A stretch of 64,000 nucleotides of DNA, from NCBI RefSeq assembly GCF_027531815.1, contig NZ_JAPZSK010000014.1:62001-126000 (forward strand). Direction: 5' to 3'. Positions within the stretch are counted from its first letter, which is position 1; every line of letters starts with the position of its first letter. Both the position numbers and the translations under genes were made by a program. The notes below the pieces were generated by a model. It ran no database searches. It was not told the DNA's origin and saw only the letters and a program-made list of their open reading frames with translations. This DNA comes from Gemmatimonas sp. (GTDB lineage: Bacteria; Gemmatimonadota; Gemmatimonadetes; Gemmatimonadales; Gemmatimonadaceae). Shown here piece by piece: positions 20,327 through 25,368 of the stretch.

Positions 20327-21214
20327 CTACCAGCCGCGCACCACGTCCCGCACCGCATCGACGAACGCCCGCGCCTCGGTCGAGGGTACGGCGCCGCGCC
20401 GCCACACGGCGACCACCTCGCGCTGCAAGTCATGATCGACGAGCGGGACATATACGCACTGCGGCGTGTTGTGCCGGGTGGCTGCCATGGCCGGCACGAT
20501 GGAGACCCCAACATCGGCGCCCACGAGTTCGAGCACCGTGGCCAACTGCGCGCTTCGGCAGACCACCGACGGCCTGACCTGCCGGCTCGAACAGAAGCCG
20601 GCCACCTGTTCGCCCAGGCAGTGCGCCGGGTCGAGCGTCACCGCCGGCGCATCGTGCAGCTGGGCCAGGGTGATCCGGCCGGCGCGGGCCGCTGGATGCG
20701 ACGCCGGCACCGCCACCACCAGAGCGTCGGAGCCCAACGACTCGGTGTCGAGATGGTCGAACGCGTACGGGAGCGCCGCGATCACCAGATCCAGCGTGCC
20801 CTCGAGCAGCAGGCGCGCCAGGACCGCGCTGTAGTCCTCACGCAGCTCCACGGTGGTGGTGGCGTGATGGGCATGGAAGCGGCGCAGGGCGCCCGGCAGC
20901 ACATAGGGGGCGACCGTGGGAATGGCCCCCACGTACAGCATCCCGCCCCCACTGGCACCTTCCCGCCGCACCGCTTCGGCGGTGGCCCGCATCTCGTCGA
21001 GCAGCCGTCGGGCGCGTGGATACAACGTGCGGCCGGCGTCGGTCATGTTCACCCCCCGACCATGGCGGGCAAACAGGACCGCCCCGAGCTGCGCTTCCAG
21101 CCGCTGGATCTGCCCGGTGAGCGACGGCTGCGAAACGCCCAGCACCCCGGCCGCCCGACTGAGGCTCCCGGCATCGGCCGTCTCCACGAACGCCCGCAAG
21201 AGATCGATGTCCAT
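20327..21214 (-). CDS. oxyR: OxyR, LysR-family peroxide-sensing regulator
   Basis: 295 residues. The N-terminal winged helix (MDIDLLRAFVETADAGSLSR, SQPSLTGQIQRLE) is LysR type. The effector domain contains DPAHCLGEQVAGFC: the two cysteines are residues 199 and 208, the same numbers and spacing as the redox pair C199/C208 of E. coli OxyR, so peroxide sensing by disulfide formation is well supported. It is divergent from katG across a 160-bp region carrying an OxyR-type operator, the classic arrangement for peroxide-induced catalase. Confidence 0.93.
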   Translation of the reverse strand: MDIDLLRAFVETADAGSLSRAAGVLGVSQPSLTGQIQRLEAQLGAVLFARHGRGVNMTDAGRTLYPRARRLLDEMRATAEAVRREGASGGGMLYVGAIPTVAPYVLPGALRRFHAHHATTTVELREDYSAVLARLLLEGTLDLVIAALPYAFDHLDTESLGSDALVVAVPASHPAARAGRITLAQLHDAPAVTLDPAHCLGEQVAGFCSSRQVRPSVVCRSAQLATVLELVGADVGVSIVPAMAATRHNTPQCVYVPLVDHDLQREVVAVWRRGAVPSTEARAFVDAVRDVVRGW

Positions 21215-21222
21215 GAAGAGCT

Positions 21223-21259
21223 ATCATACTTGGCTATGGGAATTATAGGAATACTCCCA
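21223..21259 (+). promoter_or_regulatory. Candidate OxyR operator between oxyR and katG
   Basis: Four quarter-sites occur with the exact 11-bp periodicity of OxyR (ATAG-N7-CTAT-N7-ATAG-N7-CTAT): ATCA at 21223, CTAT at 21234, ATAG at 21245 and CCCA at 21256. The two inner ones are perfect and the outer ones degenerate. The site ends just upstream of a katG -10 box, where OxyR would contact RNA polymerase. Confidence 0.65.
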
Positions 21260-21267
21260 TTGCTGCC

Positions 21268-23606
<2,339 letters not shown>

Positions 23607-23627: not shown

Positions 23628-23662
23628 GCAGCGGGGCACGCCGGATCGGCGTGCCCCGCTGC
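23628..23662. terminator. Bidirectional hairpin terminator after katG
   Basis: Perfect 16-bp stem (23628-23643 with 23647-23662), 3-nt loop, lying between the convergent ends of katG and the creatininase-like gene. GC-rich with no U-tract on either side. Confidence 0.7.
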
Positions 23663-23692
23663 ATATCCGCCTCCTGCGACGTTCGACCGGCG

Positions 23693-24529
23693 CTACGGCT
23701 GCCCGCCGCGAAACTGCTTCACCGCCGCGTTCACCTTGAAGTCGATCGCGATCTTGCCGATCTCCGCACTGGCCTTGGTGGGGTCACCCTGCACACCGGC
23801 GTCGGGGCTGCCACCGTTGAGCGCCAGCTTGTCCTTACGAATGCCCTGCGCGAACACGTACAGCAGCTGCGACGTGTCGCTGGTACCGGCGTGCGAGCCC
23901 ACCACCTGCTCGCTCCAGCCGTACGTCTTGTTGAGGTAGTCGCGAATGAGCAGGCGCCCCTGCTCGTAGTAATCGGTGAGGGCGTGCACCCGCACACCGC
24001 TCCCCGCCCATTCGGCATTGAGCGCCTTCGCGATGTTCGTCATGCCGCGCTGATTGGGGCCGCTGTCGCCAATGAGAATGATGTCGGTGAAGCCGTGCTC
24101 CTTGAGCGAGCGCACCGCGGCATCGAGCACCTTTTCGTAGGCAGGGTCGGGCAGCGAGATCACGCCGGGCTTGTCACCCCAGTTGGGGCGGTTGTAGTCG
24201 CCCTCGGGTACGTACTGCAGCGTAGGGGCGATCAGCGCGTTGCCCAACCGCTGCGCGAGCACGCCCGCCGCGAAGGTCACGATGTAATTGTGCTTCCCCA
24301 TCACCATGTGCGGGCCGTTCTGCTCGGTGCCGCCGGTGGGGATGATCGCCACCTTCTTGCCACCGGCAATCGCGTCGCGGATTTCCGTCCACGTCATGGA
24401 TTCCATGTACGGCGCGGCGTACGGATCGGGGCGATCCTGTGCGGGCAGGGGCGTCCCCACGAGCGGCGCAGCGAGTGCCAGTGCCGCCGTCGCGGCCGTG
24501 CGCACCGCGCGATGCACGATCGACCTCAT
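23693..24529 (-). CDS. Secreted creatininase-fold protein (second of tandem pair)
   Basis: 278 residues with a signal peptide (MRSIVHRAVRTAATAALALAAPLVG). The fold is recognised from VAIIPTGGTEQNGPHMVMGK, a PEGDYN / PGVISLPD region, TDIILIGDSGPNQRGM and VGSHAGTSDTSQLL. Against Pseudomonas creatininase (EQHGHH, later D, NGHYEN, EHGGVFETS) the first Glu is kept, but His36 is Asn, Asp45 is His, and His120/Glu122 (GHYE) become SGP. The usual two-metal site is therefore not conserved and the substrate is unknown. Its ATG overlaps the stop of the upstream paralogue (TGATG), so the two are translated together, possibly as partners. Confidence 0.82.
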   Translation of the reverse strand: MRSIVHRAVRTAATAALALAAPLVGTPLPAQDRPDPYAAPYMESMTWTEIRDAIAGGKKVAIIPTGGTEQNGPHMVMGKHNYIVTFAAGVLAQRLGNALIAPTLQYVPEGDYNRPNWGDKPGVISLPDPAYEKVLDAAVRSLKEHGFTDIILIGDSGPNQRGMTNIAKALNAEWAGSGVRVHALTDYYEQGRLLIRDYLNKTYGWSEQVVGSHAGTSDTSQLLYVFAQGIRKDKLALNGGSPDAGVQGDPTKASAEIGKIAIDFKVNAAVKQFRGGQP

Positions 24530-25368
24530 CACTTGCTTCCTCCCGCCCGCAGCGTGCGGATCTGATTGAGTGCGTTGTCGATCTTGATCTTGAGCAGTTC
24601 GGCGCCGAGTTCGGCGCTCGCCTTGGTGGGATCGCCGTTCACCCCGCTGTCGGGTGCACCGCCGTTGCGCGCGAAGCGCTCCGTGCGCACCAGTTTGGGA
24701 TTCACGTACAGCAACTCCGACGTGTCGAGCATCCCGGCGTGGCTGCCGATGTCCTCGTCGGTATAGCCCTTGGCGCGCAGCATCACACGCATGTCTTCGC
24801 CGGCCTTCGTGTAGTAGTCGCCGATGGCCATCGCACGCGCACTGCCGCCCCACTCGGCGTTCAGCTGATCGGCGGCCTTTTGCATGCCGCGCTGATTGCC
24901 GCCGCTGTCACCGATGTAGATGATCTGCGCGAAGCCACCGTTCTTGAGCGAGCGCCCGGCGTGCACGAGCAGCTCCACGAATCGGTCTTCGGGGAGCGTG
25001 ATGGTGCCGGGCTTGGTCATGTGCCCGCGCGGCGGATCCCAGCTGCCTTCGGGCACATACGTGACGATGGGTGCAACCAGGGCATCGCCGAGCGCGCGGG
25101 CGATGCGCTCGGTGGTGTGCGTGAGCACCCACTTGTGCTCACCATCCACCATGTGCGGCCCCTTCTGCTCCTGGCCCGCCGTGCCGATGATGACCGAACG
25201 GGTACCGGCCTGGATGCGGTCGCGGATTTCGGTCCAGGTGAGTTCGTCGATGAAGACGGGGGGCGCCGGCTTCATGGAGGCGGCCTGCGCCACGAGGGCA
25301 TCGGGCGTCGCCACGAATAGCGCAGTGGCGGCCGCCAGCAGCAGCGGAGAGTATCGAACGGGGCGCAT
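24529..25368 (-). CDS. Secreted creatininase-fold protein (first of tandem pair)
   Basis: 279 residues with a signal peptide (MRPVRYSPLLLAAATALFVA). It parallels its downstream paralogue closely: SVIIGTAGQEQKGPHMVDGE, YVPEGSWDPPRGHM, IIYIGDSGGNQRGM, IGSHAGMLDTSELL and the shared NGDPTKASAELG tail. The canonical creatininase metal ligands are again altered (His36 to Lys, Asp45 to His, GHYE to DSGG). Both therefore belong to one exported subfamily defined by GDSGxNQRGM. The gene starts 222 bp from the uppS stop, beyond a large hairpin, so it probably has its own promoter. Confidence 0.82.
   Translation of the reverse strand: MRPVRYSPLLLAAATALFVATPDALVAQAASMKPAPPVFIDELTWTEIRDRIQAGTRSVIIGTAGQEQKGPHMVDGEHKWVLTHTTERIARALGDALVAPIVTYVPEGSWDPPRGHMTKPGTITLPEDRFVELLVHAGRSLKNGGFAQIIYIGDSGGNQRGMQKAADQLNAEWGGSARAMAIGDYYTKAGEDMRVMLRAKGYTDEDIGSHAGMLDTSELLYVNPKLVRTERFARNGGAPDSGVNGDPTKASAELGAELLKIKIDNALNQIRTLRAGGSK

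Follow-up and report, generated by a model that had tools for sequence, protein, structure and literature searches.

Paired creatininase-fold proteins with a remodelled metal site in Gemmatimonas and the genomic link of their clade to a DUF1592-DUF1552-ankyrin cassette

Two adjacent genes of a Gemmatimonas sp. encode related creatininase-fold proteins, here called A and B, which belong to a clean subfamily of a known superfamily that has no name in the libraries searched. The genes lie in a stretch of 64,000 nucleotides, here called the window. Sequence comparisons and a structure model give good support to A and B as predicted subunits of one heteromeric unit. The reading held here, with slightly better than even confidence, is that they form a heteromeric hydrolase, periplasmic or secreted, whose site would hold one metal or none and which would act in a DUF1592-DUF1552-ankyrin pathway.

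Proteins of the Pfam family PF02633 are catalogued as creatininase-like hydrolases, although A and B have lost four of the five creatininase ligands; several plasmid relatives of the altered clade are annotated “creatininase”. A clean clade with fixed replacements, a possible intermediate (His120) and natural heteromer fusions makes a good case of metal-site rebuilding. The link of the wider family with an unexplained cassette provides a first handle on that gene set.

The gene pair and its surroundings

The preliminary description of this DNA proposed a tandem pair of creatininase-fold genes, and the proposal is borne out: both open reading frames are found where it placed them, they overlap by one base, and both products score above the Pfam cut-off (Table 1). 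A and B are 46% identical over 272 columns. Two plus-strand open reading frames over the pair (23651-24565 and 24439-25320) are taken as antisense open frames in GC-rich DNA. PF02633 matches in the host genome number four: A, B, a third gene of the altered kind (L024) and a canonical gene that lacks a signal-like start (L021).

Table 1. Positions in the window of the A and B genes, their overlap and the aligned active-site residues (creatininase numbering in brackets)
Feature	Position	Strand	Basis
B gene (P0002), upstream of A, 279 aa, secreted creatininase-fold protein	24529..25368	-	PF02633 116.3 bits
B gene motifs: GTAGQEQKGPHMVDGEHK, GDSGGNQRGM, GSHAGMLDTS			
B Glu67 (E34), kept	25168..25170	-	alignment, codon confirmed
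B His78 (D45 position), ligand replaced	25135..25137	-	alignment, codon confirmed
B Asp154-Ser155 (positions 119-120)	24904..24909	-	alignment, codons confirmed
TGATG overlap, 1 base common to TGA of B and ATG of A	24527..24531	-	
A gene (P0001), downstream of B, 278 aa, secreted creatininase-fold protein	23693..24529	-	PF02633 114.7 bits; AlphaFold2 pLDDT 95.6; Z 23.8 to creatininase
A Glu69 (E34), kept	24323..24325	-	alignment, codon confirmed
A His80 (D45 position), ligand replaced	24290..24292	-	alignment, codon confirmed
A Asp155-Ser156 (positions 119-120)	24062..24067	-	alignment, codons confirmed
A His213 (H178), kept	23891..23893	-	alignment, codon confirmed

By Pfam matches, a UppS-like gene lies upstream of the pair on the same strand, and genes for a KatG-like peroxidase and a LysR protein lie downstream. 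The LysR-type regulator and KatG-like peroxidase genes adjoin the pair (window 20327-23606), an arrangement also seen in L002 and L177. As functional partners they were rejected: they recur in only these two of the 23 further loci compared, as local synteny. Genes for DUF1028, prolyl oligopeptidase, phosphodiesterase and NHL-propeller proteins recur as neighbours in some loci. In four loci (L017, L018, L170 and L171), DUF1028-like genes are no more than about 6 kb from a pair or fusion, the calls being Pfam-tested in L017 and L018; L178 duplicates L017.

Family membership and fold

A and B are members of the Pfam Creatininase family (PF02633), which has a cut-off of 31.3 bits. The structure models comprise A of the window and, representing B, the B half of a B-A fusion protein (L019) described below. 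The AlphaFold2 model of A, made from an alignment of 77 chosen rows, has the creatininase fold: it superposes on creatininase 1q3k with an rmsd of 2.8 over 226 aligned residues, and Foldseek gives an E-value of 2.1e-14.

Among the NCBIfam equivalogs listed, A and B reach no cut-off. Creatininase identity is rejected, with TIGR04448 scores of 57.5 (A) and 58.6 bits (B) against a cut-off of 235 and only E34 kept of the five ligands. Identity with MftE (TIGR03964, 57.5 and 69.8 bits, far under the cut-off of 172) and with IolN (NF041098, 40.7 and 50 bits against 245) is likewise rejected. A search of PDB sequences with a clade profile returned eight matches, namely creatininase and its mutants, 3lub and 3no4; creatininase and 3lub have the canonical ligands in the printed alignments. 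The search for a known enzyme of this exact subfamily, which the preliminary description had named as counter-evidence, found none: no NCBIfam equivalog cut-off is reached, and the PDB matches are canonical where aligned. The open-access papers searched yielded nothing on the clade with His at position 45 and Asp at position 119, and none of them treated creatininase together with gemmatimonads.

Outside creatininase, the Foldseek matches of the A model begin with three esterases, two acting on carbohydrate and one on polyvinyl alcohol (E 3.5e-4 to 6.9e-3). Their TM scores are 0.24-0.30, and a de novo design follows directly (E 9.5e-3). Such esterases are SGNH-like. The likeness to SGNH/GDSL hydrolases consists of weak Foldseek and VIA rows, the VIA matches (Z < 8) being within noise, and kinship with that group is doubtful.

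The remodelled metal site

The dinuclear ligands of creatininase, which we take to be E34, H36, D45, H120 and E122, can be followed in an alignment of A and B to the solved creatininase. E34 is kept in both. H36 is replaced by Asn in A and Lys in B, D45 by His in both, H120 by Ser in both, and E122 by Pro in A and Gly in B. The earlier claim that the ligands are replaced in nearly the same way in the two proteins is therefore confirmed. The part of it that concerns E122 holds for A and B and says little: as 21 of the 26 canonical rows carry Gly there, E122 does not serve as a ligand across the family at large, and losing it is nothing special. Of the shared block GDSGxNQRGM, the conserved form is GDSGxNQxG, and the R and M of its “RGM” vary among relatives.

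The wider pattern is drawn from 185 domains of the fetched loci, which were aligned and reduced to 133 rows by 90% identity and length filters. When these non-redundant rows are divided by the residue at position 45, 107 have His, 26 have Asp, and no third residue occurs. These sets lie on opposite sides of a single branch (support 100/99) in a tree that is midpoint-rooted and carries a long-branch warning, and A and B both belong to the H45/D119 clade. Asp or Glu stands at position 119 in 107/107 His45 rows versus 0/26 canonical rows. E34 and H178 are each present in 107/107 His45 rows, R231 is invariant there and Y188 occurs in 106/107; in the canonical rows, E34, H36, H120 and H178 are each present in 26/26. 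The 107 His45 rows carry N, K, R or G at position 36.

At position 120, 98 of the 99 rows with the GDS block have Ser and one has Asn, and all of them (99/99) keep E34; eight rows, the sister group of those 99, have His there. Lys36 marks B: it occurs in 24 of the 99 rows and, before filtering, in all 12 first halves of the fusions, while two B-clade rows (L014 and L123) have Asn at 36. At L123 (G701:C257) an A-clade gene has Asn for the Ser of GDS, and the genome also carries a fusion.

GDH-type single genes occur on plasmids of Burkholderia, Paraburkholderia and Rhizobium (P0005, P0006 and L201), annotated “creatininase family protein”; phyla beyond Gemmatimonadota and the phylum of L019 were covered only via plasmids. 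The plasmid rows have Ser at position 36, and in a FastTree tree three Burkholderia/Rhizobium rows with His120 fall inside the Ser (GDS) group. Because of the clade-wide residue counts and these plasmid rows with His, the fixed core is taken to be E34, H45, D/E119 and H178, with residue 120 switching between Ser and His.

Each of the three plasmid genes examined is followed by a gene for a YNCE-like beta-propeller (L200:13911-15961, L202:11914-13963 and L201:11908-13910). Heavy-metal or copper genes occur close to the two Burkholderia genes, whose surroundings carry no annotated DUF1552. Plasmids of Burkholderia contaminans (H21-H25) each match at two places, only in part at each, and no gene is annotated there.

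Pairing and fusion of A and B

Conservation of the pairing across relatives, another check that had been proposed, is complete in the loci found. Across 30 genomes of the same genus (the window's and 29 others), B is adjacent in 13 of 13 A hits, and the listing for the phylum Gemmatimonadota adds eight A loci, all with B, for a total of 21/21.

The two proteins also occur fused. Twelve B-A fusion open reading frames were found in 12 genomes, always with B first. Eleven of the 12 genomes are placed in a second phylum, that of L019 (in G321), which the labels of L019 and L020 call Acidobacteriota; the twelfth fusion (L089) is from the genome of L020 (G323), which is absent from the match list of the sample for that phylum. 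Unfused B and A stand side by side at one further locus (G701:C257). Two labels look wrong: L018 is labelled Cyanobacteria and grouped in the phylum of L019, and L010 is labelled Candidatus Kuenenia and grouped in the window's genus.

In the tree, A and B form separate clades of 23 and 26 rows, each with support 100/100 and each containing Gemmatimonadota genes together with the matching fusion halves. First halves of the fusions group with B and second halves with A, ten of the 12 fusions remaining after the identity filter. The B halves of the fusions are changed further, with GES in 11/12 and NR in 11/12. Of the two-domain open reading frames in the altered clade, 8/20 are not B-A; these join C-type with C-type or a single-gene type with C-type (L079-L083, L106, L107; L085).

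An AlphaFold2 model of the L019 fusion, folded with the 12 fusion rows, has a pLDDT of 82.8 and a pTM of 0.87 over 544 residues; a joint alignment with single genes split those between the halves. A pTM of this size would require the two halves to be placed in a defined way. Creatininase-fold proteins form oligomers, and the heteromer suggested earlier for A and B is now well supported by the presence of B beside every A locus found, the 12 B-A fusions, the matching clades and the fusion model.

Export

A and B both satisfy a simple signal-peptide rule of our own, and these signal-peptide-like starts lend support to the earlier assignment of signal peptides and an extracytoplasmic location. 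With the second halves of fusions excluded, the rule is satisfied by 22/24 B rows, 25/32 A-or-single rows, 6/8 GDH rows, 1/26 canonical rows and 4/26 C rows, the last having a longer spacer, so that the fixed window of the rule may overlook their signal.

Link to a DUF1592-DUF1552-ankyrin cassette

In the gene calls of 23 loci and the window, the same three genes lie near several members of the clade. In L175 they encode a DUF1592 protein (PSD/PSCyt3 domains), a DUF1552 protein (PF07586) and an ankyrin-repeat protein. Among 298 Gemmatimonadota genomes, 112 have a relative of P0001 (E <= 1e-20), 112 have DUF1552, 105 have both and 179 have neither. Presence calls in both phyla are lower bounds, scored on the first few candidates per genome (at most 8, 3, 7 and 5), so that DUF1552 occurs in at least 105/112 Gemmatimonadota genomes with a relative versus at least 7/186 without; the 112 include at least one canonical protein (G078, L167). 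Descent is allowed for at genus level only: of 119 Gemmatimonadota genera, 34 have a relative, 32 have DUF1552 and 29 have both (29/34 versus 3/85). The 396 genomes of the second phylum show the same association, with 28 relatives, 73 DUF1552 and 25 of both (25/28 versus 48/368).

Genomes with a relative and without DUF1552 number 7/112 and 3/28 in the two phyla; among the seven, three hold the GDH-type (L038, L042 and L086) and one a canonical gene (L167). DUF1552 is present under all 21 handles picked for a pair or fusion, which are 19 genomes, as G324 and G326 repeat G180 and G293.

Physical proximity differs between the types. Within 8 kb of DUF1552 lie 22/25 C-type places, 24 of the 25 being from one genus and thus not independent, and 2/13 same-genus A-B pairs, as against 0/14 testable GDH-type places (14 because G048 fell outside the searched genomes) and 0/30 canonical places; part of these places were checked by sequence and the rest classed by match pattern, and short contigs limit the test. 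Over the Gemmatimonadota listing, to which four DUF1552 places from the picked genomes were added, at least 22/128 places lie within this distance. Close linkage of A/B to DUF1552 rests on G010, G011, G195, G258, G312 and G469. The window's own A/B pair has no cassette or DUF1552 beside it, and because of this any role of the pair in the cassette pathway would be by descent only. Two GDH-type genes of the second phylum (L182 and L183) do adjoin the cassette.

The arrangement was read in 21 stretches, 19 of which were chosen for closeness and so speak to arrangement, not frequency. A relative was read as adjacent to the cassette in 18 of these 19, and in six of those the genes share a strand. 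In five, the relative immediately precedes DUF1592 on its strand (L182-L185 and L193). In ten it converges on the ankyrin end from a distance of 0 to about 4 kb (L180, L181, L186-L189, L191, L192, L196 and L198), in two it diverges from DUF1592 (L197 and L199) and in one it lies 3' of the ankyrin gene on the same strand (L179); in L190, DUF1552 alone was recognised. No relative lies within the stretches L194 and L195, which are DUF1552 loci of the window's genome. A cassette with an altered-clade creatininase-like gene on one side was noted in the window's own genome at G000:C11 (L179:7709-16000), in L180-L193 and in L196-L199, across two phyla and in several arrangements.

Mechanism and alternative explanations

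A and B are likely to be enzymes, as the whole clade holds E34, H45, D/E119 and H178 constant. New chemistry is possible, as is an alternative ligand set of E34, H45, H/S120, D119 and H178. In the proposed mechanism, A and B would be exported separately and then assemble, and the fusions suggest that the A-B contact is a useful one. The dinuclear ligand set is lost in both subunits: site two (H36, E122) has no conserved ligand, and site one keeps E34, gains H45, and has His or Ser at 120 and D/E at 119. This would give a smaller site built on E34, H45, D/E119 and H178 together with position 120, which is Ser here and His elsewhere. His120 rows could form a 2-His-1-carboxylate site; in Ser120 rows the site might use D119 or H178 to bind a single metal, or go without. 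The site would still hydrolyse a C-N or C-O bond, and Lys36 of B may give a fixed positive charge at the former second-metal place. From the genome linkage we infer a shared extracytoplasmic pathway, in which the clade would probably act on a breakdown product handled by the DUF1592 (PSD/PSCyt3), DUF1552 and ankyrin proteins. It is suggested only tentatively that a dinuclear metallo-amidohydrolase fold was exported and turned into an obligate hydrolase of two kinds of subunit, one-metal or metal-free and with a switchable Ser/His120, as the hydrolytic arm of a DUF1592-DUF1552-ankyrin periplasmic pathway.

Some observations weigh against a hydrolase in this pathway. The window's pair is not near DUF1552, and only two of the 13 same-genus pairs are by the 8-kb measure; some genomes have a relative and no DUF1552; the plasmid relatives are followed by a propeller gene, with no DUF1552 annotated near the two of Burkholderia; and the further-changed B half of the fusions also fits a decaying or structural subunit. 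The last observation, like the loss of four of five ligands, is what would be expected of pseudoenzymes, a secreted binding or scaffold pair in which catalysis went with the metal centre. Such a pair is nevertheless unlikely, for decayed sites do not show residues as constant as E34, D/E119, H178, R231 and Y188 in these diverse rows, and the replacement residues are as fixed as the original ones. A metal-free serine hydrolase, with E34, H45 and S120 as a Glu-His-Ser triad and the GDS block as nucleophile loop, would place its triad at E34, D45 and H120, presumably the positions of the ligands of one creatininase metal. It would also account for the near-constant Ser120 and E34 of the GDS rows and for the esterases at the head of the Foldseek matches outside creatininase. 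The Ser/His switch at 120 weakens any mechanism that requires Ser, with His in the eight sister rows and in the Burkholderia/Rhizobium rows inside the GDS group, and the esterase matches have low TM scores and are followed directly by a de novo design, with the VIA rows at noise level; a serine hydrolase is accordingly judged decidedly unlikely.

The proteins might instead remain dinuclear metallo-amidohydrolases that draw ligands from D119, H178 and residues of the partner subunit. D/E119 appears where D45 is lost, the site may be close to a subunit interface, and two GDH-type rows have Asp at 122. With N, K, R or G at 36 (S in the plasmid rows) and mostly Gly at 122, however, the second site has no conserved protein ligand in the alignment, which makes a dinuclear centre improbable. 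Least probable of all is that A and B are two independent homomeric paralogues merely kept in tandem after duplication: single-gene relatives outside A and B (e.g., L062-L078) indicate that a homomer is workable, yet B stands beside every A locus found, and the 12 fusions of another phylum always run B then A.

Comparison with known systems

Creatininase of Pseudomonas putida (1q3k, 1j2t; TIGR04448) shares the fold, E34 and H178 with A and B and gives their best PDB sequence matches. In contrast to it, A and B have H36, D45, H120 and E122 replaced, are predicted to be exported and are of two subunit kinds. The putative creatinine amidohydrolase 3lub of Bacteroides fragilis shares the fold, matching the A model with Z 21.7, and is a near relative of the canonical gene L021 of the host (E 1.6e-53); unlike A and B, it has the canonical residues in the L021 alignment (EPHN...TD, GHGGN). 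The mycofactocin peptidase MftE and the 3-dehydro-scyllo-inosose hydrolase IolN (NF041098) belong to the same superfamily, and A and B fall far under the cut-off of the one and miss that of the other. Two published accounts place MftE (PMC10885120) and a riboflavin-pathway formamidase (PMC9478397) in the creatininase superfamily.

Closer to A and B are the GDH-type plasmid genes, of which the three read are 39-43% identical and share His45, Asp119, H178 and, by eye, a signal-like start. They differ in having His at 120, and no second such gene is annotated beside the two Burkholderia ones. No paper linking creatininase-fold proteins with the DUF1592-DUF1552-ankyrin cassette was found in the open-access papers searched, and one published account describes PSCyt functions as unknown (PMC5615132). 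It is this cassette of PSCyt3/PSD genes that is the genomic partner of the altered clade.
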